Of a DNA stretch of 52,921 nt, positions 5,752-29,736 are shown piece after piece; positions within the stretch are counted from its first letter, which is position 1, and each line of letters starts with the position of its first letter. The stretch comes from Armatimonadota bacterium. GTDB taxonomy: Bacteria; Sysuimicrobiota; Sysuimicrobiia; Sysuimicrobiales; Sysuimicrobiaceae. The notes beneath the pieces were generated by a model, which searched no databases, was not told where the DNA came from, and saw only the letters and a list, made by a program, of their open reading frames with translations. The position numbers and the translations under genes are program-made. The DNA is taken from contig JAVKGX010000012.1 in NCBI GenBank assembly GCA_031432545.1, positions 1 through 52,921 of the forward strand, read 5' to 3'.

Positions 5752-7059
5752 CTAGTCCGGCCTGCACGGACGCATCGGTGGGTCCGGCGGCGGGCACGGA
5801 GCGTTGGTCGCGCGGTACAGATCCTCCAACCTGCGGGCCTGCGTCGCCAGGGTCTGCGGGATGTCGCGCCCCTCGATGGCGATCAACCGGAAGGTGTCGA
5901 CGTAGATGGGCACGAACTCACCGGTCCGCGCCCCCAGGCCCACGGGCAGCAGCGCGGTCCGCGCGTCCGGCGCGCCCGCCTGCGCCGACACGCCGTCGGC
6001 CATGACCCTGAGCCCGCCGGTCGGGACCGCGCGCGCGGCCTCAGGGGACACCGGGAAGAACGCCACTCCCTGCAGCGTCGCGACCTGCGTCGCGGGACGC
6101 GTCAGGTACTCGATCAGCCGCGCGCCCGCGTCGGGGTTGGGCGCCACGCGGGGGATCGCCAGCCCCACGACGACCGAGAGGAACGAACGTCCCTTCGGCC
6201 CCGCCGGCGAGGGCAGCACCACGAAGTCGCCCGGCCGCTGGCGCAGCGCCGGGATCAACCGCGCGGTGTGGTCCCACCCCACCCACGCCTCGCCGGTCAG
6301 GAGCGGTTCGTGCATGAACTCCCACACGAACGACGACGGATGCGTCACACCCCACAGCCGCCGCAGGTAGCGCCACATCTCGACCGCCTCGGCGGACTTG
6401 AATCCCTTCACCTGCGAACCGGTAAACGACGGGTACGCGTAGCCGTGCAGGAACCGCCCGTACAGCCCGCGCGGCCCAACGGGGAATCCCAGCCGCCGCT
6501 GCCCGGTGGCCTGGCGGATGTTGTCGCCCCACTCCAGCAGATCGTCATAGGTCATCCGCATCGGGTTGCGGCCCGACGGGAAGTAGCGCATCGCCTCGCG
6601 GCGCGCCGCGATCAGGTAGGTCGCCTGCATCCACGGGATGAACGCCTGGATGTTTCCGATGCGGCTGACGTCGCGCAGGTCCCGGTAGAACGTGCGGTCA
6701 CCCCGCGCATCCAGCTGCCGCTGAAGGGCCGCCATGTCGCGGATGGCGTTTTCGGCCACGAAGACCGGGAAGATGCCGTGCAGCGTCCCGGTGACGTCGA
6801 TCGTGCCGCGCCCCGCCCGGGCTTCGGCCAGGACACGGTCGACGTACGGCCCCTCCGGCTCCGTGATGAAGCGCACGCCGATGCCGCTTTCCTCCGTGAA
6901 GCGGCGCAGCAGCGTGCCGCGCGCCCACTCCTGTTCTTCGACCGGCGTGAACTGGTTCGAGGTGAAGACGATCTCCTGCGCCGGCGCGCCCACGCCGGGG
7001 CTCACACCGGCCACCAGTACGACGGCGACGAGGATCGCCGACAACCTCAACACGCTCAT
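5752..7059 (-). CDS. extracellular solute-binding protein of a carbohydrate ABC transporter
   Basis: A 435-residue exported binding protein (family 1, sugar type). The first ~25 residues are a Sec signal peptide (VLRLSAILVAVVLVAGV...GVGA) with a likely signal-peptidase I site; no lipobox cysteine is seen. The mature part begins QEIVFTSNQFTPVEEQEW and continues with an N-lobe containing a TIDVTGTLHG segment like that of sugar-binding proteins. The ATG at 7059 overlaps the stop of rarA in ATGA, so translation appears coupled to a DNA-metabolism gene, odd for a transporter subunit. It leads the SBP-permease-permease-ATPase-glycosidase set. The ligand is unknown. Confidence 0.9.
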   Translation of the reverse strand: MSVLRLSAILVAVVLVAGVSPGVGAPAQEIVFTSNQFTPVEEQEWARGTLLRRFTEESGIGVRFITEPEGPYVDRVLAEARAGRGTIDVTGTLHGIFPVFVAENAIRDMAALQRQLDARGDRTFYRDLRDVSRIGNIQAFIPWMQATYLIAARREAMRYFPSGRNPMRMTYDDLLEWGDNIRQATGQRRLGFPVGPRGLYGRFLHGYAYPSFTGSQVKGFKSAEAVEMWRYLRRLWGVTHPSSFVWEFMHEPLLTGEAWVGWDHTARLIPALRQRPGDFVVLPSPAGPKGRSFLSVVVGLAIPRVAPNPDAGARLIEYLTRPATQVATLQGVAFFPVSPEAARAVPTGGLRVMADGVSAQAGAPDARTALLPVGLGARTGEFVPIYVDTFRLIAIEGRDIPQTLATQARRLEDLYRATNAPCPPPDPPMRPCRPD

Positions 7060-8468
7060 GATCCCCCCTCTCCCTTCTCAGATGTGTCGCTGTCCGAAGT
7101 ATTTGCCCTGCGGTCGGCATCTCCCTCCCCGACGCCGGCGGTCTCGTCCGAGTAGGCCTTGCGGCCACGCCACAACCTGCGCAGGCGTTCGCGCACTCCG
7201 GCTTCCTCACCGTAGCCGGTGGGCTCGTAGTAGACGCGGTCGCGGATGGCCTCCGGCACGTAGTCCTGCGGCACGAAGCCACCGGGGTGGTCGTGGGGAT
7301 ACTCGTAGCCGCGCCCCGACCCCAGCCTGCGCGCACCAGGATAAGAGGCATCGCGCAGGTGGAGCGGGACCGGCGGGGAAGGCAGGTTCTCGACGTCGGC
7401 CGCAGCCCGGTCGATCGCGCGGACGACTGCGTTGCTCTTAGGCGCGCAGGCGATGTAGATGGCAGCCTCGGCCATCGGGATGCGGGCCTCGGGAAGCCCG
7501 ACGTATTCGACCGCGTGGGCGGCGGCGGTCGCCACCAGCAGCGCCTGGGGATCGGCGAGCCCGACGTCCTCGGCGGCGTGGACGATCATCCTCCGGCAGA
7601 TGTATCGCGGGTCCTCGCCGGCGGCCAGCATCCGGGCCATCCAGTAGACCGCTGCGTCGGGATCCGATCCGCGCAGGCTCTTGATGAACGCCGAGATCAC
7701 ATCGTAGTGCTGGTCGCCGGACTTGTCGTAGCGGACGACACGGCGCTGCAGCGCGTCCGCCACCACCGCCACCGTCACCCGCCGCACCCCGTCTGCGTCG
7801 GGGGGTGTCGTCGCCACGGCCAGTTCGAGCGCGTTGAGCGCGATGCGCGCATCCCCGTTTGCGACTTCCACCAGGTGCGCGATCGCCTCCGCCGTCAGTT
7901 CGGCCCGGGCGGCCCCCAGACCCCGCTCGCGATCGGAGAGTGCGCGCTCGAGCAGGCGCGCGACGGATGCGCCCGACAGCGGCTCCAGCCGCAGGATCCG
8001 AGAACGCGAAACCAGCGTGGCGTTGACCTCGAAGAACGGGTTCTCCGTGGTGGCACCGATGAGCACGACCGTCCCGTCCTCGACGTACGGCAACAGCAGG
8101 TCCTGTTGGGCCTTGTTGAAACGGTGGATCTCGTCGATGAACAGGATCGTGCGCTGCCCGTGGAAGCGGCGCCGGTCCTCGGCCTCGCGGATCACCCGCC
8201 GCATGTCGGCCACGCCGGACGTGACCGCGTTCAGGGAGACGAAGTGCGCGCGCGTCTGCTCGGCGATGACGTGGGCCAGCGACGTCTTGCCGGTGCCCGG
8301 GGGTCCATAGAGGATGAGCGAGGTGAGGTCGTCGGATTCGATCAGTTTGCGCAGCAGTCGGCCCGGCCCCAGGATGTGCTCCTGCCCGACGAACTCCTCC
8401 AGCGTGCGCGGGCGCATCCGCGCGGCCAGCGGAGCCCTCAGATCGGTCTGCGCCTCGAACAGAGACAT
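7056..8468 (-). CDS. rarA: replication-associated recombination ATPase RarA (MgsA)
   Basis: RarA is an AAA+ ATPase related to clamp loaders that acts at stalled replication forks and interacts with SSB. The 470 residues carry Walker A GPPGTGKT (55-62), Walker B LFIDEIH (109-115), sensor 1 ATTENP, and the C-terminal tetramerisation part with YWMARML, DPRYICRR, and the RarA-typical tail HPGGFVPQDYVP. The last ~45 residues are an extra acidic/serine-rich tail. It follows aspS by 57 bases; Firmicutes such as Bacillus subtilis also keep rarA just downstream of hisS-aspS. Its stop overlaps the start of a sugar-binding protein gene. A weak TGCTATGCT in the upstream gap may give it its own promoter. 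Confidence 0.95.
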   Translation of the reverse strand: MSLFEAQTDLRAPLAARMRPRTLEEFVGQEHILGPGRLLRKLIESDDLTSLILYGPPGTGKTSLAHVIAEQTRAHFVSLNAVTSGVADMRRVIREAEDRRRFHGQRTILFIDEIHRFNKAQQDLLLPYVEDGTVVLIGATTENPFFEVNATLVSRSRILRLEPLSGASVARLLERALSDRERGLGAARAELTAEAIAHLVEVANGDARIALNALELAVATTPPDADGVRRVTVAVVADALQRRVVRYDKSGDQHYDVISAFIKSLRGSDPDAAVYWMARMLAAGEDPRYICRRMIVHAAEDVGLADPQALLVATAAAHAVEYVGLPEARIPMAEAAIYIACAPKSNAVVRAIDRAAADVENLPSPPVPLHLRDASYPGARRLGSGRGYEYPHDHPGGFVPQDYVPEAIRDRVYYEPTGYGEEAGVRERLRRLWRGRKAYSDETAGVGEGDADRRANTSDSDTSEKGEGGS

Positions 8469-17917: not shown

Positions 17918-20125
17918 CTAGGCCGACACCACGCGCTCGACCCGATAGACGTCTGGCATCTTGCCGATGCGCTGCATGACGGCGGTGAGCTGGCCGACGT
18001 TGCGGATGTCCAGCGTCAGGTTGATGACACCCACCTTGTCCTTCCGCACGCGGGCGTTGACCGAGATGACGTTTGTGCGCGCGTCAGCAACGGCGGCCAG
18101 CACGTCCTTCAGCAGCCCGACGCGGTCCATCGCTTCGACCTGAACCTCCACCGGATACGTTCCGTCGGCCGACGGTTCCCACTCGACCTCGATGAGGCGC
18201 TCGGGGCGGCCGCGGAGGTAGGTGATGTTGCGGCAGTCGCGCCTGTGGATCGTGACCCCACGGCCTCGCGTGATATAGCCCACCACCGGATCTCCCGGCA
18301 GCGGCATGCAGCAGCGGGCCAGCGTCATCAGCACGTTCTCGACGCCCCGGACCCGCAGACCCCGCGGCGCCTCCGGCGCCGCTTGGGTCACCGGCGACTC
18401 CACCGCTTCCTCGGAAGCGACTCGTTCGTCGCCCTGCAGCGCCTGCACCACCTGCAGCAGCGACAGGTCGCCGTTGCCCAGCGCCGCGAGCATGTCCTCT
18501 TCGGTGGGCAGCTGCAACCGCTCGGCGGCCTGGCGCAACCGCTCCGATTTCATCAGCGACGACAGCGCACCCAGCCTCCGCAGTTCGCGCTCGAGCAGCT
18601 CACGGCCGCGCGCGATGTTCTCCTCGCGGTGCTGCTTGCGGAACCACTGCCTGATCTTGTTGCGCGCGTTGCTCGTGACGACGAACGACAGCCAGTCCCG
18701 GCTGGGCCCGGCCGACGTCTTCGAGGTGAGGATCTCGACGATGTCGCCGCTGCGCAGCCGGTGGCTGAGCGGCACCAGCCGGCCGTTCACCTTCGCACCG
18801 ACGCAGCGGTGGCCGACGTCCGTGTGGATCCGGTACGCGAAGTCCACCGGCGTTGCGCCGCTGGGGAGGTCGATCACGTCTCCCTTGGGTGTGAAGACGA
18901 AGACCTCGTTCTGGAACAGGTCGAACTTGACCGAGCGCATGAACTCCTGCGCGTCCTGCATCTCCTGGTGCCACTCCAGCAGCTGTCGGATCCAGGAGAG
19001 CTTCTCCTCGAACGCTCGGTCGCGCCCGGCCGCGCGCCCTTCCTTGTAGCGCCAGTGGGCCGCGATCCCGTACTCAGCCTCCTGGTGCATGCGGTGCGTG
19101 CGGATCTGGATCTCCAGAGGCACGCCGCGGTAGATCACCGCCGTATGCAACGACTGGTAGCCGCTGGGCTTGGGGTTGGCGATGTAGTCGTCGAACTCGC
19201 CCGGGATCGGCCGCCACAGCGAGTGGACCACGCCCAGGGCGGCGTAGCAGTCCTTCTCGTCGTCGACGATCACCCGTACGCCCAGCCGGTCGTACACCCG
19301 CGACACGCTGCGCCCCTGGTATTCGGGCCGCTGCAGTTTCCGGTACAGGCTGTAGGCGTGCTTGGGTCGCGCGGTGATGTTCTGTCGCTCCACGCGGATG
19401 CCGGCCCGGTTCAGCTCGCGGTACAGCTCGTCGCTGACGCCGCGCAGGACGTCCTCCTGCTGCGCCCGCGCCTCGGCCAGGGCCTCGGTGATCTCCTTGT
19501 AGGCTTCGGGTTCGAGGATCGCAAACGCCAGGTCCTCGAGTTCGTTCTGCAACTGGCCGATGCCCAGCCGTTTGGCCAGCGGAGCGTAGATCTCCAGGGT
19601 CTCCTGCGCCTTGCGCCGCTGGTGGTCCGCCGGCATGACGGCGATCGTGCGCAGGTTGTGCAGCCGGTCGGCGAGCTTGATGAGGATGATGCGGACGTCC
19701 GAGGCCATCGCGAGGAACATCTTTCGCAGGTTCTCGGCCTGCCGCTCCTCGCGGGTCTTCCACTGGATCTTTCCCAGTTTGGTCACCCCATCGACCAGGT
19801 TGGCGATCTCCTCGCCGAAGGTCGCACGCACCTCGTCCAGGGTGTGTCGGGTGTCCTCGGGGACGTCGTGCAGGAGGGCCGCGGCCACCGTCACGGGATC
19901 CAGCCGGAGGTCGGCGACGATCTGGGCCACCGCGACGGAGTGTAGGACGTACGGTTCACCGGACCGCCGTTGCTGGCCCTCGTGGGCCTCGGCCGCGAAC
20001 ACGTAAGCCCGGTGCAAGAGGTTGGCGTCCGCGTTGGGATGGACCTCGCGGACGCGCTCGACCAGCCGCCGCACCGGCTCGGGCAGCTCGACCTGACGCA
20101 CCGTACGCGACGCACGCGTCGCCAT
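17918..20125 (-). CDS. relA: bifunctional-looking RelA/SpoT (p)ppGpp synthetase/hydrolase
   Basis: A full-length RSH protein of 735 residues controlling the stringent response. Order: HD hydrolase domain with H62, H86-D87, E90-D91, D153, N157 all present; synthetase domain (about 250-350) with RPKHAYSLYRKLQ and GYQSLHTAV; TGS (about 405-465); helical region; CC/zinc-finger-like LARCCMPLPGD with H627 and C631; and ACT (about 655-733). Unusually, the synthetase substrate loop reads EFDD (310-313), the acidic ExDD form associated with monofunctional RelA, rather than RxKD of bifunctional enzymes. It starts 3 bases after recJ, as in the conserved recJ-relA-dtd order. Confidence 0.96.
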   Translation of the reverse strand: MATRASRTVRQVELPEPVRRLVERVREVHPNADANLLHRAYVFAAEAHEGQQRRSGEPYVLHSVAVAQIVADLRLDPVTVAAALLHDVPEDTRHTLDEVRATFGEEIANLVDGVTKLGKIQWKTREERQAENLRKMFLAMASDVRIILIKLADRLHNLRTIAVMPADHQRRKAQETLEIYAPLAKRLGIGQLQNELEDLAFAILEPEAYKEITEALAEARAQQEDVLRGVSDELYRELNRAGIRVERQNITARPKHAYSLYRKLQRPEYQGRSVSRVYDRLGVRVIVDDEKDCYAALGVVHSLWRPIPGEFDDYIANPKPSGYQSLHTAVIYRGVPLEIQIRTHRMHQEAEYGIAAHWRYKEGRAAGRDRAFEEKLSWIRQLLEWHQEMQDAQEFMRSVKFDLFQNEVFVFTPKGDVIDLPSGATPVDFAYRIHTDVGHRCVGAKVNGRLVPLSHRLRSGDIVEILTSKTSAGPSRDWLSFVVTSNARNKIRQWFRKQHREENIARGRELLERELRRLGALSSLMKSERLRQAAERLQLPTEEDMLAALGNGDLSLLQVVQALQGDERVASEEAVESPVTQAAPEAPRGLRVRGVENVLMTLARCCMPLPGDPVVGYITRGRGVTIHRRDCRNITYLRGRPERLIEVEWEPSADGTYPVEVQVEAMDRVGLLKDVLAAVADARTNVISVNARVRKDKVGVINLTLDIRNVGQLTAVMQRIGKMPDVYRVERVVSA

Positions 20126-20128
20126 ACC

Positions 20129-23100
20129 TTATCCTGCACCCGACGGCGCTCCCGAAGCAACCGAGGGCGCGGCCACCGCCTCCAGGATCTGCATCGCAGA
20201 CGCCGCCAACGACCACCGGATCCCTTCTTCCCGCGCCGCGCGGGTGCGCTCCCCTTCGGCGAACCGGATGGAGAGCCCCAGGTCCCGCCTGCCGTCCGCC
20301 TCGGGCAGGTTGACCGTCCACCCGCCGTCCACCCGCTCCCGGCTGAGGATGCCGGCCTGTTCGAGGATCTCCAGGACCGCAGGCACGAGTTCGGTCGGAT
20401 CCAAGCCCGTCGTCGTGCGGATCGCTTCGGCCAGGTCGGCGTCCGGCCAGCGCGCCGACGACCCCTTCCGCCTCAGAATCCGGTACACCGCCGCGACGGT
20501 CGCCCGTGTGGGATGCGTCGTCTGGACGGCCCTGCGCGCACGTTCGGCATCGGCCGGCCCGTACAGCAGGTGCATGGTGACCGATTCCCGACCCCTGCCC
20601 GCGGCGGCCGCCCGCAGGAGGAACCCCTCCCGGGACGGCGGGGCCAGCCAGACCAGGTGGCGGACTCCTGCGATCTCGGCCTCCTCGGGCACCGCGCCCG
20701 CGCACACCAGGCAGCGGATCTTCCCCTGCGACAGGAGACTGTACAACGTCTGGCGGATGCGGCGCGGGAGGCGGTCGTGATCGTAGGTGACCCGGTACGG
20801 TGCACGCGCGCGCAGGTTGGATGCGGTCTGGACAGCGCTGCGGGCATCCGACTCGAAGACGACGGCGCTCTCGCCTGCGGCCAGGATCCGATCGAGGATC
20901 GCCCCCCGCTCGGCGGAACCACGCCGGTCCTGGATGCGCACCCCGGTCCGTGCCTGTGTCGCGTACAGCCCCATCCACCCCTCCGGCGCTGCAGCACGCG
21001 GGTCCCACACGCACCACAGCACCGGGCCGGGGTTGCGCGCCACCACCACTTCCGGAGGAGTTGGCTCGCCGAACCCGTCGCCCACGACCGCGGCCCGCTC
21101 GGGCAGCACGACCTCGGCATCGCCACCGTGTAGGTACGCCAACGTGGTGAACACCACGTCGGTCTGACCGGAGCGCACGGCTTCCAGGGCCCGTGTCCTC
21201 TCGCGGCCGCCGACCGTGCCGTGCAGCCTCACTGCACGCACGCCCACCGAGGCCAGGCGCGGCCGCCAGCCCTCCCAGCGGGCATCGCAAACCTCGTCGG
21301 TGGGCAACAGGCACACGACGCGTTCGCCGCCGATCGCGCGTGCTGCGGCGACCAGCAACAGCGCCACCCAGGCTCCGCGGCCCGGACCCGCCACGAGCAC
21401 CGTTCGGTCCGCGTGCAAAGCGCGCGCGGCCCACTGTCGGGGCTCGGTCGATCCGAGGGGGCGATGGAGCAGGTGCAGGCCCAGCCGCTCGATCTGCTCG
21501 TCGCCACCGGCCGCCGCCAGCGCCATGCGCACCAGTTGCGGCCGTGAGGGTCCGCCGTCGGTCGCCTCTTCGATACGCTCGATCAAGACGTTGACGCCCA
21601 ACGACCGGTCCCCGCCACCGGTGACCTGGGTCACCGTCGCCCGGTACCGCGCCCCCCGATCCATCGTCGGCGCGATGCGGCCGGCCAGTACCGCCGCCAG
21701 GTAGCCGACCTGCTCACCGTCGGCACGGCGGACGCGGATGGCGTGGGGATCGTGCGGGTTGTCAGGCTCTCGTTCAAGCACCAGCGGCTCACCGGGTGCG
21801 AGCCGGCCTACCACCGCCTGGCGGTCTTCGAACGTTACGCCGACGACCTTGGTGTAGAACGAAGCCGCCTCCTCGATCCCGCGGTACGCCCCGCTCAGGT
21901 ACTCCTCGCTGCGCTCGAACAGCCGCCCGGTGAGGACGCCGGCGTCGGACAGCACGCGCTCCAGGTCGACCCCGGGCGTCTGCAGGTCCTCGAGCAAAAG
22001 GCGCGGCCCCTCCACTTCGCCCCACCGGTCGCGCTCCAGGCTGCCGGCCACGTCGACTACGGGTTCGGTGAACGCCAACACCTCCGCCAGTTCGGCACCC
22101 CGGAAGGCGAACGCGTCCAGGTAGCGCTCGCCGTCCGTCAGGCGCAGCCGCAGGTGCTCACCCCCGGCCACAGAGACCGCCACCGGACGCAGCCCCCGCA
22201 GCGCGATCACCGGACGCGGGTTCCCGGCACCGAACGGCGCCAGCGACTCCAGTTCGGCCGCCAGCGCCCCGTCGATCTCCTCCAGCCGCGCTTCGGCGTC
22301 GACCTCCACGACGGGAACCAGGTCGTCCGGGGACAGGCGCGCCCGCACGGCCCGCTCGAAGCGTTCGCGAAACGCTTCCAGGCGGTCGGCAGCGACGGTG
22401 ACCCCCGCCGCGGAAGCGTGCCCGCCGAAGCGGTCCAGCAGGTCCCGGCAGTCGTGCAGCGCTTCGACCAGGTTCAGCCCCGGCACACCCCGGGCGGACC
22501 CGCGCGCCACCTCACCTTCTACCGCCAGCAAGACCGAGGGGCGGTAGAACGTCTCCCGCACGCGCGCGGCCGCGATCCCGACCACGCCGGCGTGCCAGTC
22601 CTGCCCCCACACGACGATGCCGGCCCCTCGGTCCAGCCCGAGTTCGGTCACCGCCGCGACGGCTTCGGCCAGGACGCGGTCCTGCAACTGTTGTCGGCGC
22701 ACGTTGTACCGGTTCAGCGCGTCGGCCAGCCGGCCGGCTTCCTCGGGATCGTCCGTGAGCAGCAGGGTCAGTGCCTCGGACGCCGACTCGACCCGGCCGG
22801 AGGCGTTGATGCGGGGGGCGACCTTCCAGGCGACGTCGTCGGCGGAGACCGGACGGCGCTCGGGTGCCAGGCCCGCCGAACCTAGCAGCGCCCGGACACC
22901 GACCAGAGGCGATGCCGCGAGCCGTTCGAGGCCGGCACGGGTCAGGATCCGGTTGTCGCCGACGAGCGGCACGACGTCGGCGATCGTCGCGAGGGCGACA
23001 AGCTCGAGGAGGTCTTCCGACGGGGCCGCCCCCGTACGGCGCCGCAGCGCCCGCACCAGCATCCAGGCGAGCCCGGAAGCACAGTAGTCCGAAAACGCCG

Positions 23101-23680
23101 CCCGCCCGTCCCCACCCCCCGACCCCGATCCCCCGACCTTGGGGTCCACCACGGCGTCGGCCTCCGGCAGGACGGGGGGCGGTTCGTGATGGTCTATGAC
23201 GACGACCTCCATCCCCAGCCGCCGCGCGAGGGCGATCTCCCGGACGGCGCCGATGCCGCAGTCGACCGCGACCAACAGGCGCGTGCCGTCCTCGGCAATC
23301 GCCCGGACGGCGGACTCCGCGAGACCGTAGCCGTCGCGCATCCTGTGCGGGATGAACGTGTGCGCGTCGAAACCCAGCGCGCGCAGGCCCCGCACCAGGA
23401 TCGCAGTCGCGCACACCCCGTCCGCGTCGTAGTCTCCGTAGACCGTGATCTTGGCGCCGGCGCGCGCCGCCCTCAGCACCACCCGGGCGGCCTCCGGCAG
23501 GCCGGGTATGCGGTCCGGATCGGTAAGTTCGCCCAGCGAAGGGCTTAAGAACGCCCGGGCACACACCGGATCCCGGTACCCGCGCAGGGCGAGGACCTGC
23601 GCGGTGATGGGGGCAATGCCTAGGGCCGTTGCGAGGTGTCGGCTTTCGGGAAGGAGCGGGCTGATCCTCCAGCGTGTCAT
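20129..23680 (-). CDS. recJ: RecJ single-strand exonuclease fused to HIRAN and degenerate RecQ-like helicase domains
   Basis: A 1183-residue protein, about twice a normal RecJ. Residues 1-~565 are RecJ: DYDADG (83-88), DCGIG (140-144), DHH (163-165), DHHA1 with RINASGRV and FGGHASAAG (418-426), and an OB-like domain. Residues about 606-705 form a HIRAN domain (VVGVTFEDRQ, LEREPDNPHDPHAI, VGYL), a module that binds 3' single-strand ends in HLTF. Residues about 740-1060 read like a RecQ-type SF2 helicase whose Walker A is GPGRGAW (Lys and Ser/Thr lost) and whose DExH is GDGFG, yet a motif VI-like AAAGRGRES remains; ATP hydrolysis is improbable. The start is ATG 23680; further upstream the frame overlaps the lapA-like gene. 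The ribosome site is weak. 3 bases separate it from relA. Confidence 0.93.
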   Translation of the reverse strand: MTRWRISPLLPESRHLATALGIAPITAQVLALRGYRDPVCARAFLSPSLGELTDPDRIPGLPEAARVVLRAARAGAKITVYGDYDADGVCATAILVRGLRALGFDAHTFIPHRMRDGYGLAESAVRAIAEDGTRLLVAVDCGIGAVREIALARRLGMEVVVIDHHEPPPVLPEADAVVDPKVGGSGSGGGDGRAAFSDYCASGLAWMLVRALRRRTGAAPSEDLLELVALATIADVVPLVGDNRILTRAGLERLAASPLVGVRALLGSAGLAPERRPVSADDVAWKVAPRINASGRVESASEALTLLLTDDPEEAGRLADALNRYNVRRQQLQDRVLAEAVAAVTELGLDRGAGIVVWGQDWHAGVVGIAAARVRETFYRPSVLLAVEGEVARGSARGVPGLNLVEALHDCRDLLDRFGGHASAAGVTVAADRLEAFRERFERAVRARLSPDDLVPVVEVDAEARLEEIDGALAAELESLAPFGAGNPRPVIALRGLRPVAVSVAGGEHLRLRLTDGERYLDAFAFRGAELAEVLAFTEPVVDVAGSLERDRWGEVEGPRLLLEDLQTPGVDLERVLSDAGVLTGRLFERSEEYLSGAYRGIEEAASFYTKVVGVTFEDRQAVVGRLAPGEPLVLEREPDNPHDPHAIRVRRADGEQVGYLAAVLAGRIAPTMDRGARYRATVTQVTGGGDRSLGVNVLIERIEEATDGGPSRPQLVRMALAAAGGDEQIERLGLHLLHRPLGSTEPRQWAARALHADRTVLVAGPGRGAWVALLLVAAARAIGGERVVCLLPTDEVCDARWEGWRPRLASVGVRAVRLHGTVGGRERTRALEAVRSGQTDVVFTTLAYLHGGDAEVVLPERAAVVGDGFGEPTPPEVVVARNPGPVLWCVWDPRAAAPEGWMGLYATQARTGVRIQDRRGSAERGAILDRILAAGESAVVFESDARSAVQTASNLRARAPYRVTYDHDRLPRRIRQTLYSLLSQGKIRCLVCAGAVPEEAEIAGVRHLVWLAPPSREGFLLRAAAAGRGRESVTMHLLYGPADAERARRAVQTTHPTRATVAAVYRILRRKGSSARWPDADLAEAIRTTTGLDPTELVPAVLEILEQAGILSRERVDGGWTVNLPEADGRRDLGLSIRFAEGERTRAAREEGIRWSLAASAMQILEAVAAPSVASGAPSGAG

Positions 23681-24076: not shown

Positions 24077-24697
24077 TCACCTGAGCGGTCGGGCGGCGCG
24101 CTGCTCCAGAGCGCGCACGGCTGCGCTGGCCGCCAGTGCCAGCGACGATACGGCCATCGCGCCGGTGACGATCTTGTCCCGGTGGCCCTGGGACACACCC
24201 TGGAACAGCAGCACGCCCAACCCTCCGGCGTTGATGAACGCGGCGACCGCTGCGATGGCGATCACGGCGACCACGGCGACCCGCAGCCCGGCGAGCATCA
24301 CCGGCAGACCCAGGGGGAATTCGACCCGCCAGAAGGTCTGCCAGGGGCTCATCCCCATGCCCCGCGCGGCCTCCACCACCGCCGGGTCCACCGCGTCCAG
24401 TCCCACCACGACGTTGCGCACGAGGATGATCTGCGCGTACGTCACCAGCGCGGTGACCGCGGGCAGACGGCCGAGGCCCATCAGCGGGATCAGCAATACA
24501 AACAGCGCCAGGCTCGGGACCGTGTACAGCACGCCGAGCACCGCCAGCAGCGGTCCGCGCAGACCCCGCACGCGAACCGCGGCGACGCCCAGTGGCAGGG
24601 CGATCGCCGCCGCGATGCCCAGCGACACCAGCACGAGCCAGGCGTGCTGTCCCAGCAGGGTCAGCACGACGTCCGGATGTTCCAGGGCGTAGCGCAC
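24077..24697 (-). CDS. glycine betaine/choline-type ABC transporter permease (second)
   Basis: A 206-residue permease with about five or six hydrophobic segments and the OpuB/OpuC/YehW-type coupling loop VEAARGMGMSPWQTFWRVEFP, in which the EAARGMGMS core is diagnostic of the quaternary-amine family. GTG 24697 is chosen for its GCGAGG ribosome site; it lies 22 bases after the ATPase gene stop. It pairs with the other permease (26689-27330) to form a heterodimeric channel for osmolyte uptake. The gene order permease, binding protein, ATPase, permease matches OpuC and YehZYXW systems. Confidence 0.9.
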   Translation of the reverse strand: MRYALEHPDVVLTLLGQHAWLVLVSLGIAAAIALPLGVAAVRVRGLRGPLLAVLGVLYTVPSLALFVLLIPLMGLGRLPAVTALVTYAQIILVRNVVVGLDAVDPAVVEAARGMGMSPWQTFWRVEFPLGLPVMLAGLRVAVVAVIAIAAVAAFINAGGLGVLLFQGVSQGHRDKIVTGAMAVSSLALAASAAVRALEQRAARPLR

Positions 24698-24719
24698 CGT
24701 CGCCTCGCCGAGATCCCGG

Positions 24720-25679
24720 CTACCTTCTCAGCACGTTCCGGATGTCCTCGAGCCCCACCCGCCCCACGACCACCCCGCCGTCACCGACTACGATCACGGA
24801 GGCCACGTCCGTCCGCAGGAGGACCGAGAGGGCCGAGCGCAGGTCATCGTCCGCCCTCACCGTCGCCACGTCCCCCAAGACGTCCCCGCCCCGCGCAGCG
24901 TCCCCTCGCAGGACCGACGCCACCGGCATCAGGCTGAGGTGGCGCAACACGTCGTCGCTGGCCAGCAGTTCGGCGACGAACGCGTCGCGCGGCCGGGTCA
25001 GGATTGCCAGGGGCCGGTCGTGCTGGACGATGCGGCCGTTCCGCATCACCGCAATCCGGTCGGCCAGCCGCAGCGCCTCGTCGACGTCGTGCGTCACGAA
25101 GACGATCGTCTTGCGCAGCTTCCGCTGGATGGCCCGCAGTTCGTCCTGCAGCCGCGCGCGGGTGATCGCGTCGACTGCGCCGAACGGCTCGTCCATCAGC
25201 ATGATCGCCGGATCGGCGGCCAGGGCCCGCGCCAGCCCCACCCGTTGCTGCTCCCCGCCCGACAGCTCGCGCGGACGGCGGCGGCGGTACTCGCGCGGCA
25301 GGCCGACCAGATCGAGCAACTCGTCGATCCGCGCCTCGATCCTTGCCCGGGGCCAGCCCAGCAGTTCCGGGACGACGGCGATGTTCTGCTCCACCCTCAG
25401 ATGCGGGAACAGGCCGATCTGTTGGATTACGTACCCGATGCGGCGGCGCAGCTGGGTGGGAGGTTGGGAGCGGATGTCGTCGCCGCCGATGAGGATGCGG
25501 CCGCTGTCAGGCTCGTACAGCCGGTTGATCAGCTTCAGCAGGGTCGTCTTGCCGCAGCCGGAGGGTCCCAGCAGCACCGTGAGCTCTCCGGCGTCGACGG
25601 ACAGACTGCAGTCGTCCACCGCAGGCCGGGGCGAGCCCGAAAAGCGCTTGGTGACGTGCTCGATCGCGATGGCGGTCAT
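24720..25679 (-). CDS. glycine betaine/choline-type ABC transporter ATP-binding protein
   Basis: An ATPase of about 319 residues: Walker A GPSGCGKTT (38-46), Q-loop IQQIGLFPH, signature ELSGGEQQR, Walker B IMLMDEPFGAVD, switch H in VTHDVDEA. The C-terminal ~70 residues form a CBS-like segment (VASVIVVGDGGVVVGRVGLED), as in OpuA/OpuC/ProV ATPases, where it senses ionic strength or gates activity. The start MTAIAIEHVTKRF (ATG 25679) fits the family; GTG 25721 in the same frame would add 14 residues and close the gap to the binding-protein gene. Neither start has a strong ribosome site. Confidence 0.9.
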   Translation of the reverse strand: MTAIAIEHVTKRFSGSPRPAVDDCSLSVDAGELTVLLGPSGCGKTTLLKLINRLYEPDSGRILIGGDDIRSQPPTQLRRRIGYVIQQIGLFPHLRVEQNIAVVPELLGWPRARIEARIDELLDLVGLPREYRRRRPRELSGGEQQRVGLARALAADPAIMLMDEPFGAVDAITRARLQDELRAIQRKLRKTIVFVTHDVDEALRLADRIAVMRNGRIVQHDRPLAILTRPRDAFVAELLASDDVLRHLSLMPVASVLRGDAARGGDVLGDVATVRADDDLRSALSVLLRTDVASVIVVGDGGVVVGRVGLEDIRNVLRR

Positions 25680-25743
25680 GGGTCCGCGGGGCACCGACAG
25701 CCGTCCGCCGGGACCGGTCACCGCCCACCGACCACGGCGTCGG

Positions 25744-26646
25744 CTATCGCTTCCGGATCAGTCCTCTCTCCTCCAGGAACTCGCGCGCGACGACCGCGAA
25801 CTCCCTCTTCTCAGGGCCGTCCACTCTCCAGTTCAGCTCCGCCATGATGGCGTCCGTCAAGGAGGGGGCGAGTTTGTTGAGAGCATCGGCGATCTTCGGA
25901 TATCTCTCGAGCACTTCGGCCCGCACGACCGGAGCCGCCTGGTAGACCGGGTAAAAGTTCTTGTCGTCGCGCAGCAGCACCAGCCCCAATCCGCTGATCT
26001 GCCCGTCGGTCCCGAACGCCACGACCACGTCGACCTGACCGTTGACGAGCGCCTCGTACCGCAGGCTGCCGGTGCCCAGCTGGCGGAACTCCTTGAAGCG
26101 GAATCCGCCGTATGCCTGCTGCAGCCCCTTGATCCCGTCCTCGCGCTCGGCGAACTCCGCCGGCGCACCCAGACGCAGCTCGCTCGCTCTGCGCGCGAGG
26201 TCGGAGTACGTGCGGATCTCGTACCTCTCGGACACCTCCCGCGTGGTGGCCAGCGCCTGCGTGTTGTTGAACGGTGCGGGCTCCAGCCACACCAAGTCGA
26301 ACTTCTGCCGGTATCCGTTGCGCACCGCCTCGACGACCGCCTGCGCGTTGGGCAGCGGCCGCTCCTTCAGCACGGTCAGCAACCCGGTGCTGGTGTACTC
26401 CGGATACAGGTCGATCTCACCCTTGAGCAGCGCTTCGTGCGCCACCGGCGTGCCGCCGAGGTTGAACTTCCGTTCCACCCGGAACCCTGCGTCTTCCAGC
26501 AGCAGCGCGTACATCTCCGCGAGGATGAACGCCTCGGTAAAGTCCTTCGACCCGACCCGGACCGTCGGTGCTTCCCCGCCTCGTCGGGCGCACCCGACCG
26601 CCGCCAGGACGACGCCCAACAGCAACACGAGCATGCGCGTTCGCAT
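25744..26646 (-). CDS. glycine betaine/choline/carnitine-type substrate-binding lipoprotein
   Basis: A 300-residue OpuAC-family (OsmF/OpuBC-like) binding protein. The N-terminus MRTRMLVLLLGVVLAAVGC is a lipoprotein signal with acylated C19, tethering it outside the membrane. The mature protein starts with the family pattern VRVGSKDFTEAFILAEM, then LLKGEIDLYPEYTSTGL and the hinge region FGTDGQI. Ligands in the family are quaternary amines such as glycine betaine, choline or carnitine; aromatic cage residues cannot be assigned by eye. It lies 42 bases downstream of the first permease gene in the four-gene uptake cassette. Confidence 0.9.
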   Translation of the reverse strand: MRTRMLVLLLGVVLAAVGCARRGGEAPTVRVGSKDFTEAFILAEMYALLLEDAGFRVERKFNLGGTPVAHEALLKGEIDLYPEYTSTGLLTVLKERPLPNAQAVVEAVRNGYRQKFDLVWLEPAPFNNTQALATTREVSERYEIRTYSDLARRASELRLGAPAEFAEREDGIKGLQQAYGGFRFKEFRQLGTGSLRYEALVNGQVDVVVAFGTDGQISGLGLVLLRDDKNFYPVYQAAPVVRAEVLERYPKIADALNKLAPSLTDAIMAELNWRVDGPEKREFAVVAREFLEERGLIRKR

Positions 26647-26688
26647 CAGCTCCCCCTCGTCTGACGAGTTCCATCCCCGGCCCGTCGC

Positions 26689-27330
26689 TCAGGCACTTCC
26701 GGTCGCCCACTGCAGCCACCGCTGCGTCGCCGCCAGCGTCCCCTCGGTCAGCATCGTCAACGCCGCGACGGGAACCGCACCCACGAGCATCACGGACACG
26801 TCGAACAGCGCGAACCCGCGATAGATGAAGTCCCCCAACCCGCCGCCCCCGATGAACGCTGCCAGCGTCGCGCTTGCCGTCACCTCGACGGCCGCTGTGC
26901 GGACGCCGCCGACGATGACGGGAAGCGCGAGGGGGACCTCCACCCGCCACAGGACCTGCCGCCCGTCCATCCCCATGCTCCGCGCGGCTTCGACGACGGC
27001 CCGGTCCACACTCCGAAAGCCCGCCTCGGTGTTCGCGAGGATTGGGGGGCAGGCCAGGATCGTGAGCGCGACCAGCGCCGGCAAAAAACCCAGACCCAGG
27101 TAGGGCAGCGCGAGGAACAGTGTCGCCAGACTCGGGACCACGCGCAGCCCGTTGACCAGGTGCAAGATCTGTGCGGAGAGCGGACGTCGGCGCGCCGCAT
27201 ACAGCCCCAGCGGCAAACACAGCCCACACGCGATCACCAGCGCCGTCCCGCTCAGACGCACGTGCGTTCCGACCGCCTCCCAGAAGAAGGCCTGGTTGTC
27301 CAGGGCGTAGCGATATGCGGCTTCGAGCAT
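26689..27330 (-). CDS. glycine betaine/choline-type ABC transporter permease (first)
   Basis: A 213-residue inner-membrane permease with five or six hydrophobic segments and the coupling motif VEAARSMGMDGRQVLWRVEVP, parallel to its partner permease gene. GGGLGDFIYRGF is the family's conserved C-terminal loop. The gene begins 25 bases after secF, with no clear promoter in between, so this osmolyte-uptake cassette may ride on the secDF transcript. It has been inserted between secF and the lapA/recJ genes relative to the usual Firmicutes arrangement. Confidence 0.9.
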   Translation of the reverse strand: MLEAAYRYALDNQAFFWEAVGTHVRLSGTALVIACGLCLPLGLYAARRRPLSAQILHLVNGLRVVPSLATLFLALPYLGLGFLPALVALTILACPPILANTEAGFRSVDRAVVEAARSMGMDGRQVLWRVEVPLALPVIVGGVRTAAVEVTASATLAAFIGGGGLGDFIYRGFALFDVSVMLVGAVPVAALTMLTEGTLAATQRWLQWATGSA

Positions 27331-27355: not shown

Positions 27356-28321
27356 CTACCGTCGCCGATTCCGCCGGTTCGCCGTCGCGAGTTCCCGCTG
27401 CGGCTGCGGAGCCGGCTTCGGCTGCGGCGCGGCGGACTTCCGTTCGCCCCGCAGCTGCATGTCCACCAGCAGCGGCCCGGCGACGCCGATCGACGAGTAA
27501 GCCCCGGTCAGGACCGCGACCGTGAGCCCGAACGCGAAGTCCCGGATCGTCGGGCCGCCGAAGACGTAGACCGCGCCGATCGCCAACAGCGTCGTCAGGC
27601 TCGTGTTGATGGATCGCACCAGGGACTCGAGGATGCTGCGGTTCACCAGGGTCGGAAACGGCTCCCGGGTTCGCATGTCCAGGTTTTCCCGGATGCGGTC
27701 GAACACCACGATCGTGTCGTTGATCGAATATCCGACGACGGTGAGTAGCACCGCGACGAAGCTGCTGTCGACGGTCGCACGCAGCAGCGCGTAGGCACCG
27801 ATCACCAGCAGCACGTCGTGCAGCAACGCCACGTCGGCGGCCAGCGCGAAGCGCACCGACCGGAACCGGACGGTCACGTAGGCGACCTGCAGGATCAACC
27901 CGATCGCGAGCCCGATGATCGCGATGTTCCGCAGCTCGCGTCCGATCTTGGGGCCGACGTCGTCCACGCTGAGGATCGTGAACGCCCCCGCGCCGTCGCG
28001 CACGGCGCGCAGCATCCGCGCCCGCTCGGCCTCCTCGAGGTGGCGCGTCCGAATGGAGACGTCCGCAGTGCCGGGCGTCTGCTGGATGATCGCGTCGCGC
28101 AGCCCCAGCGGGGTGAGCGCGGCCCGGACCTGTCCGGTGGTCACGCGGGAATCTTCGAAGCGCAGGTTCACCAGTGTGCCGCCGGTGAAGTCCACGCCCC
28201 AGTTCAACGCAGGACGGCCCGCGGCGACGTTGACGGCGATCGCGACGACGCCGGGCAGGACCAGGCACGCCGAGATCAAATACAGCCAGCGTCGCCGGCC
28301 GATCAGGTCCCAGGCTTTCAT
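27356..28321 (-). CDS. secF: protein translocase subunit SecF
   Basis: SecF works with SecD to pull preproteins across the membrane using the proton gradient. The 321-residue protein has TM1 (LYLISACLVLPGVVAIAVNV), the start of the periplasmic domain NWGVDFTGGTLV, the conserved GPKIGRELRN before TM2, VGYSINDTIVVFDRIREN between TM4 and TM5, and a proline/alanine-rich basic tail (QPKPAPQPQ...RRNRRR). The ATG 28321 overlaps the secD stop in ATGA. The open frame upstream of this ATG is overlap with secD. Length and order are normal. Confidence 0.96.
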   Translation of the reverse strand: MKAWDLIGRRRWLYLISACLVLPGVVAIAVNVAAGRPALNWGVDFTGGTLVNLRFEDSRVTTGQVRAALTPLGLRDAIIQQTPGTADVSIRTRHLEEAERARMLRAVRDGAGAFTILSVDDVGPKIGRELRNIAIIGLAIGLILQVAYVTVRFRSVRFALAADVALLHDVLLVIGAYALLRATVDSSFVAVLLTVVGYSINDTIVVFDRIRENLDMRTREPFPTLVNRSILESLVRSINTSLTTLLAIGAVYVFGGPTIRDFAFGLTVAVLTGAYSSIGVAGPLLVDMQLRGERKSAAPQPKPAPQPQRELATANRRNRRR

Positions 28322-29670
28322 GACGCCGCCTCCGCCGCGGTCTGCGGCAGGCGCGCCATCGTCGTCAGCGCCCGCCCCCATCCGAACCCGGCAGTGGCCT
28401 CCACCAGCCAGCGGGTCAGCAGGATCACCGTCACCATCGAGACCGAGACCCCGATCACCAGCGTGACGGCAAAACCCCGGATCGGGCCGCTGCCCAGCCA
28501 CCACAGCACGACTGCGCCCAGCAACGTCGTCACGTTCGCGTCCACGATGGTGGAGATGGCCCGTCGCCAGCCCGCATCGATCGCAGCGCGCAGCGTCTTG
28601 CCCATGCGCAACTCTTCTTTCATCTTCTCGAACACGATGACGTTGCCGTCCACGCCCAGGCCCAGGCTGAGGATCAGCCCGGCGATGCCGGGAAGGGTGA
28701 GGGTGGCACCAATCAAGGAAAAGATCGCGAGCACGGTGAGCATGTAGATCGTCAGGATCGTCGACGCGAGGACACCGGACAGGTGGTAGTACATACCCAT
28801 GAACAGCACGACGGTCGCAGCGGCGATCCAGCCGGCACGCAGGCTCTTCTCGATCGAGTCCCTCCCCAGCGTGGGCCCGACGGTCCGTTCCTCCACGACC
28901 TCCACCGGTACCGGCAGGGCTCCGCCGCGCAGCAGGATCGCGAGGTCACCGGCTTCGGCGGCGGTGAAGTTGCCTTCGATCACGCCCTCCCCGGGGATGC
29001 GGGCACGGATGACCGGGGAGGAGATCACACGGTTGTCCAGCACGATCGTCAGGTATTGCCCAATGGCCTGGGCGGTGTGCTCCTCGAACCTGCGCGCGCC
29101 CTCACCGGCGAATCGGAACCGCACGAGCCACGCGAGCTGGTTCTGGTCGAACTCCGCGCTCGCGTCGCGGAGGTCGGCTCCGGTCACGATCACCTTCTTG
29201 GGAAGATCGATCGTCCGCCCGTCGGGCAGGCGCACGCGCCGGTTGTCCGCGGTCCACTCCGCGCCCTGCGGCAGGCTCTGCGCGCCGGTGTCCACGAACT
29301 CCAGCAGGGCCGTCCGCCCGATCAGCTGCTTCGCCCGCTCGGGGTCCTGCAGGCCCGGGAACTCCACGATGATCCGGTTGTCCCCTTGTCGCTGCAGCAG
29401 CGGCTCGGCTACGCCCAGCGCGTCGATGCGGTTCTCGATGACGCGCATCGCCGCGTCCACCTTGTCCGGCGTCACCTCGATCCCGGGGGCGCTCTGCGCC
29501 TCCAGCACCAGCCGAGTACCTCCCTGCAGGTCCAGTCCCAGACGGATCTGGGGCTGGAGGGGTTGGAGCATCGGCGTCCAGCCGTCCAACCGGATCGGGC
29601 GAAAGACAACCTGGAAGGCGGTAGCGGCGATCAGCAGGATCACCAGTAGCCGAACCGGGTGGGATCGCAT
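28318..29670 (-). CDS. secD: protein translocase subunit SecD
   Basis: A 450-residue SecD with TM1 near residues 8-24, the family segment RLGLDLQGGTRLVLE, the P1 periplasmic domain, LVRFRFAGEGARRFEEHT, and the C-terminal five-helix block with GLGVDGNVIVFEKMKEE and GSGPIRGFAVTL. ATG 29670 is chosen because GGAGGAG is 7 bases upstream; the longer open frame (to 29706) includes that ribosome site. It is preceded by a leader with an extended -10 promoter and, surprisingly, a terminator-like hairpin between promoter and gene. It is followed by secF. Confidence 0.96.
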   Translation of the reverse strand: MRSHPVRLLVILLIAATAFQVVFRPIRLDGWTPMLQPLQPQIRLGLDLQGGTRLVLEAQSAPGIEVTPDKVDAAMRVIENRIDALGVAEPLLQRQGDNRIIVEFPGLQDPERAKQLIGRTALLEFVDTGAQSLPQGAEWTADNRRVRLPDGRTIDLPKKVIVTGADLRDASAEFDQNQLAWLVRFRFAGEGARRFEEHTAQAIGQYLTIVLDNRVISSPVIRARIPGEGVIEGNFTAAEAGDLAILLRGGALPVPVEVVEERTVGPTLGRDSIEKSLRAGWIAAATVVLFMGMYYHLSGVLASTILTIYMLTVLAIFSLIGATLTLPGIAGLILSLGLGVDGNVIVFEKMKEELRMGKTLRAAIDAGWRRAISTIVDANVTTLLGAVVLWWLGSGPIRGFAVTLVIGVSVSMVTVILLTRWLVEATAGFGWGRALTTMARLPQTAAEAAS

Positions 29671-29704
29671 TCGGGCTCCTCCGCGTTCGCCGTGGCCGAC
29701 GTAC

Positions 29705-29736
29705 AAAAAGACGCCTGAGGGTGGCCGACCCTCAGG
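29705..29736 (-). terminator. terminator-like hairpin upstream of secD
   Basis: On the minus strand CCTGAGGGT-CGGCC-ACCCTCAGG forms a perfect 9-bp stem (29736-29714), followed by CGTCTTTTT. It can end the beta-oxidation transcript that stops at 29775, but it also lies downstream of the secD -10 box, so it may act as an attenuator of secDF. Confidence 0.8.

Follow-up and report, generated by a model that had tools for sequence, protein, structure and literature searches.

One polypeptide encoded in the window, the whole 52,921-nucleotide stretch of DNA analysed here, joins an intact RecJ nuclease to a HIRAN domain and a RecQ-derived core that has no ATP site, and this architecture recurs throughout the window's order. 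We lean towards the view that the protein acts as a RecJ 5'–3' exonuclease whose motor-less HIRAN–RecQ module would be an anchor placing RecJ at 3'-end junctions.

A complete RecJ with a HIRAN and RecQ-type extension

The gene begins with an ATG at 23680 on the minus strand and ends with a stop codon at 20129–20131, a real open reading frame of 1183 residues. The features of the gene and of two nearby genes are as follows.

20129..23680, minus strand: recJ–HIRAN–dead RecQ gene, 1183 aa (open-reading-frame reading)
22985..23452, minus strand: RecJ DHH domain, aa 77–232 (Pfam)
22343..22618, minus strand: RecJ DHHA1 domain, aa 355–446, containing FGGHASAAG (Pfam)
21986..22303, minus strand: RecJ OB domain (RecJ_OB), aa 460–565 (Pfam)
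21602..21862, minus strand: HIRAN domain, aa 607–693, with N641 and D644 aligned to the NPYD of HLTF (Pfam)
20996..21478, minus strand: first RecA-like lobe, RecQ type, aa ~735–895, ATP site degenerate
21368..21388, minus strand: degenerate Walker A GPGRGAW, aa 765–771 (motif alignment)
21068..21082, minus strand: degenerate motif II GDGFG, aa 867–871, replacing DEAH (motif alignment)
20531..20953, minus strand: second RecA-like lobe, RecQ type, aa ~910–1050, motifs V and VI degenerate
20306..20512, minus strand: winged-helix-like segment, aa ~1057–1125 (model, element order H-E-H-H-E-E)
17918..20125, minus strand: relA/spoT, the next gene downstream of recJ, 3 bp apart
7056–8468, minus strand: RarA/MgsA-type AAA ATPase, ~12 kb from recJ

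The window protein scores 459.8 bits against the NCBIfam recJ profile TIGR00644 over residues 23–565 (cut-off 396.9), and D83, D85, D87, D140, D163-H164-H165 and D235 (the last sitting just past the end of the DHH domain at residue 232) are found in every aligned member that covers them. Residues 1–565 make up a whole RecJ in which no catalytic residue is missing and for which 5'–3' exonuclease activity on single-stranded DNA is predicted. This is the same complete nuclease core, catalytic residues included, as in canonical bacterial RecJ (TIGR00644; T. thermophilus 2ZXO, D. radiodurans 5F55), whereas the ~618 extra residues that hold HIRAN and the dead RecQ core are particular to the longer form.

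The HIRAN domain (PF08797) is matched at 2.5e-16, with 59.7 bits against a cut-off of 24.7, and is the sole HIRAN in the 2.19 Mb assembly. It is homologous to the HLTF domain (6e-8), and HLTF provides the nearest solved structures; unlike HLTF/Rad5 HIRAN proteins, however, the window protein has neither a RING nor an SNF2 motor and carries its HIRAN attached to a nuclease. Beyond HIRAN, Pfam gives a weak Helicase_C/DEAD signal, the RecQ-family NCBIfam signal at residues 935–1058 is weak, and the RecQ profiles TIGR00614/TIGR01389 reach 13.5 bits, below the cut-off of 219.8. No zinc-domain, RQC, HRDC or winged-helix match in the window protein exceeds the Pfam cut-off.

Structure prediction supports a RecQ-type fold for this region. 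Foldseek searches with an AlphaFold model of residues 571–1183 (pLDDT 72) retrieved Mfd, WRN, RecQ, RECQL5 and RECQL4 at ~1e-8 to 1e-10, with WRN, RecQ and RECQL5 standing among other SF2 helicases, and the full-length model ranked RecJ first and SF2/RecQ-type helicases lower. The underlying alignments, built from window sequences and related loci, were shallow (8 and 6 sequences), and the models, of moderate confidence (pLDDT 72–74, pTM 0.52), speak to the fold only and do not fix the relative placement of domains. At that level of confidence, the C-terminal module is modelled as two RecA-like lobes of the RecQ/WRN fold followed by a winged-helix-like tail, beside which Pfam places no RQC or zinc-domain match.

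Less decayed relatives match the RecQ family clearly in profile searches (L033, 2e-12; L037, 3e-48), and L037, an active homologue, also remains under the cut-off of the RecQ TIGR profiles at 164.7 bits. Because both the profile cut-off and the motifs fail, the module is not a RecQ helicase by membership, yet it is RecQ-derived. It shares with RecQ family helicases (E. coli RecQ 1OYW, WRN, RECQL5) the fold and a weak profile match, but lacks an ATP site and any zinc-domain or HRDC match and is fused to a nuclease. A preliminary description had proposed this composition for the chain, with HIRAN at about residues 606–705; profiles, motifs and model bear it out, HIRAN rising over its Pfam cut-off at 607–693, and neither an intact ATP site nor an unrelated fold emerged.

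Motor loss and selection in the window's order

In a search of 147 genomes, the architecture was found end to end in nearly all of the 42 same-order genomes, with parts seen in seven families, and at least 33 genomes have the two halves aligned within a single open frame. This conservation of the whole architecture excludes a gene-prediction artefact or chance frame. What departs from this is accounted for by contig ends that cut the gene, by two genomes of very low completeness (G006 and G040) and by one split gene; no member trimmed back to plain RecJ was found in the window's order. In the split gene (L035:2863-6323), RecJ and the dead module occupy two overlapping frames of 633 and 565 aa, representing a gene split or an assembly frameshift.

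None of the 35 scorable members of the order has the lysine of Walker A, the glutamate of motif II or the first arginine of motif VI; motif III and the GEGxN of motif V were lost together with these residues, and the substitutes vary from family to family. In several members the P-loop still shows GxGRG and motif II still holds an acidic residue. In the window protein, Walker A and motif II read as the preliminary description gave them, but its further claim that RecQ motif VI is kept does not stand: the first arginine is gone throughout the order, and the window protein has an arginine left in the second arginine column alone, a column that is R in only 3 order members. Misplacement of motifs in one divergent protein is excluded, since all scorable members agree and the flanking conserved columns hold. 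In contrast, Walker A, DExH and motifs III, V and VI are all intact in 44 of 44 aligned actinobacterial members. Judged from the sequences, an active RecQ-like helicase is the ancestor of the module, whose motor is dead in the window's order. Because the motor-less members form one group in the helicase tree (support 100/100), as do the RecJ cores of the dead members in an unrooted RecJ tree (support 100), the motor was most simply lost once, before the families of the order diverged.

The module has been kept after motor loss, evidently under purifying selection, because dN/dS is ~0.1–0.4 in both dead lobes. Across nine close pairs with synonymous divergence of ~0.3–1.35, values were 0.10–0.40 for the two lobes and 0.13–0.28 for RecJ, the lobes lying somewhat above RecJ and thus under looser constraint, and dN/dS in the dead clade exceeds that in the active clade. 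Conservation is likewise lower in the lobes (0.45–0.52) than in RecJ (0.62), whereas HIRAN, at 0.69 against 0.45–0.53 for lobes and tail, is better conserved than the rest of the extension and keeps N641 and D644, in an NPHD stretch corresponding to the HLTF NPYD, across the order. H820, Y966, H968 and P972 are invariant in the dead clade at positions where active members carry other residues, and W1078-P1079 is nearly invariant in the dead clade. Median pI is also higher in the dead than in the active clade (9.1 versus 4.9 for HIRAN; 10.3 versus 6.7 for the first lobe), a basic shift that is partly protein-wide.

The relA/spoT neighbour is common to the relatives and to the actinobacterial fusion L037. 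The rarA-like gene, which the preliminary description placed in the same neighbourhood, was rejected as an operon partner of recJ; it lies ~12 kb off, and the stretch separating the two holds unrelated genes (for an aminotransferase and an amidase, besides relA and fabI). On the other side, glycine-betaine/choline-type ABC transporter genes at 24077–27330 (minus strand) lie between secDF (27356–29706) and recJ. Compensation by a separate RecQ was also rejected, as a scan of 43 genomes from the order gave no RecQ above the curated threshold. The one strong RecQ-like protein (L187, in G021) lies within a long open frame and scores 371 bits, below the TIGR01389 cut-off; G021 is the sole order genome with a strong separate RecQ-like helicase. 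The window genome encodes RecO and a large protein with a PD-(D/E)XK domain of AddB/RecB type, so double-strand ends may be handled elsewhere.

Actinobacterial fusions and the origin of the architecture

Coriobacteria-like actinobacterial fusions share the end-to-end domain order and the ~1200-aa length of the window protein and likewise adjoin relA, but they keep all helicase motifs, and some are without HIRAN. The example L037, from Coriobacteriaceae bacterium EMTCatB1, is a 1212-aa RecJ–HIRAN–helicase in which ATGRGKS, DEAH, ATTAT, FGEGVN and GRAGRDG are present. Among 250 relatives of the L037 genome, RecJ is joined to this helicase in most of those listed, with HIRAN in many and absent in some. 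Five of them (L162, L165, L166, L177 and L178; 1107–1136 aa) combine RecJ with an active-type helicase without HIRAN, and Coriobacteriia also have HIRAN as a protein of its own (L073, L074, L076, L079, L080 and L095). With an active fusion existing in actinobacteria, the window protein reads no longer as an odd RecJ but as a RecJ–RecQ fusion whose motor was lost secondarily.

Whether HIRAN–RecQ was fused to RecJ twice, in the window's order and in actinobacteria, or once in an ancestor bears on origin only and is compatible with any of the functional readings below. Two independent fusions seem a real possibility, though we put them at somewhat under even chances. Outside the order, the top-scoring match to the RecJ core of the window protein is an un-fused RecJ (G070, 44–47% identity), and ~340 other genomes, drawn from most of the other families sampled, have no fusion among the matches listed. 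An un-fused HIRAN plus RecQ-like helicase with intact motifs also exists, in two genomes of a further family (L160:9082-11433 and L161:5343-7472); a search without a positive control found no RecJ match in these genomes (G418 and G554). Against two events, the domain order, the tail and the recJ–relA neighbourhood are common to both fused groups, and the unrooted RecJ tree is compatible with a single origin.

Proposed role of the motor-less module

In textbook accounts of the RecF pathway, RecQ and RecJ work as partners in resection, and domains of the HIRAN type are known to bind 3' ends of DNA. RecJ by itself degrades ends with a 5' tail, blunt or 3'-tailed ends needing RecQ; the two cooperate in resection, and no direct contact between them was found in Deinococcus (PMC4846377). 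Because the window protein has no helicase in cis and no separate RecQ over cut-off was found in the 43 genomes, we favour a motor-less anchor. By homology, HIRAN would capture the 3' single-strand end of a gap or of a stalled fork, the motor-less RecA lobes and winged-helix-like tail would hold the adjacent single-strand/double-strand junction, and the active RecJ site would thereby be set on the neighbouring 5' end. Gap-widening or resection by RecJ would then be targeted by DNA structure rather than coupled to unwinding in cis, with any unwinding supplied by another helicase; the actinobacterial fusion, judging by its motifs, would provide the helicase in cis. The 3'-end sensing and the possible action at remodelled forks that the preliminary description proposed would likewise follow from homology. 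Homology of HIRAN to HLTF is by itself no proof of 3'-end capture by the window protein, and some HLTF contact residues seem, on a by-eye reading, to be replaced in its HIRAN; HLTF N90/N91 is the pair mutated in a HIRAN study (PMC4666394).

A different role, which we consider unlikely but worth weighing seriously, is that the dead module serves chiefly to bind other proteins (SSB, RecO, RecA or the replisome) rather than to anchor DNA. Such a role would leave traces similar to those of an anchor. In D. radiodurans it is through its C-terminal domain that RecJ binds the SSB tail (PMC4846377), the window genome has a RecO to bind, and the dead-specific conserved residues could form a docking surface. 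The superior conservation of HIRAN within the extension nevertheless points to DNA, and Pfam marks no other known protein-binding domain there. That the domain is a decaying remnant, carried along with little or no function once the helicase was lost, is improbable. The lobes do fall below RecJ in conservation and evolve at a higher dN/dS than the active clade, and in one genome the gene is spread over two overlapping frames; yet open frames persist in seven families with dN/dS well under 1, some invariant residues are peculiar to the clade, and a member cut to plain RecJ was not found.

Least credible of all, to the point that we give it hardly any weight, is a helicase still working through an unusual nucleotide site. 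The GxGRG stretch and acidic motif II residue of several members could be read in that way, but motif III, the motif V GEGxN, the first motif VI arginine and the key residues of Walker A (K) and motif II (E) all went together, with replacements that differ by family, and we know of no SF2 helicase that works lacking all of these motifs.

For the favoured anchor, there are precedents among inactivated helicases: AddB/RecC and the UvrB-like part of Mfd are kept as the DNA- or partner-recognition part of a repair machine. These are SF1- or UvrB-derived, not RecQ-derived, and have no DHH nuclease joined to them; by analogy, the window module would work like the dead helicases of AddB/RecC but differs in its RecQ origin and its DHH nuclease. 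In the open-licence literature searched, to which the novelty of both forms is limited, we found no description of a RecJ with HIRAN, of a RecJ–RecQ fusion or of RecJ in Coriobacteriia, in keeping with the preliminary description, whose author knew of no described RecJ of such make-up.

We therefore offer, tentatively and at a little less than even odds, a broader account in which RecJ and RecQ form one polypeptide across an actinobacterial group and, in a separate phylum, turned into a nuclease guided by HIRAN and lacking a motor, a counterpart, of RecQ descent, to the dead helicase in AddB/RecC that would target RecJ to 3'-end junctions. A natural RecJ–RecQ fusion with intact motor motifs suggests that action in cis is possible and provides a single-chain enzyme for study, whereas the motor-less version may separate the unwinding by RecQ from DNA-structure targeting in the help that RecQ gives to RecJ. 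Dead helicases retained for recognition form a small set, to which the motor-less version would bring a member of RecQ origin.
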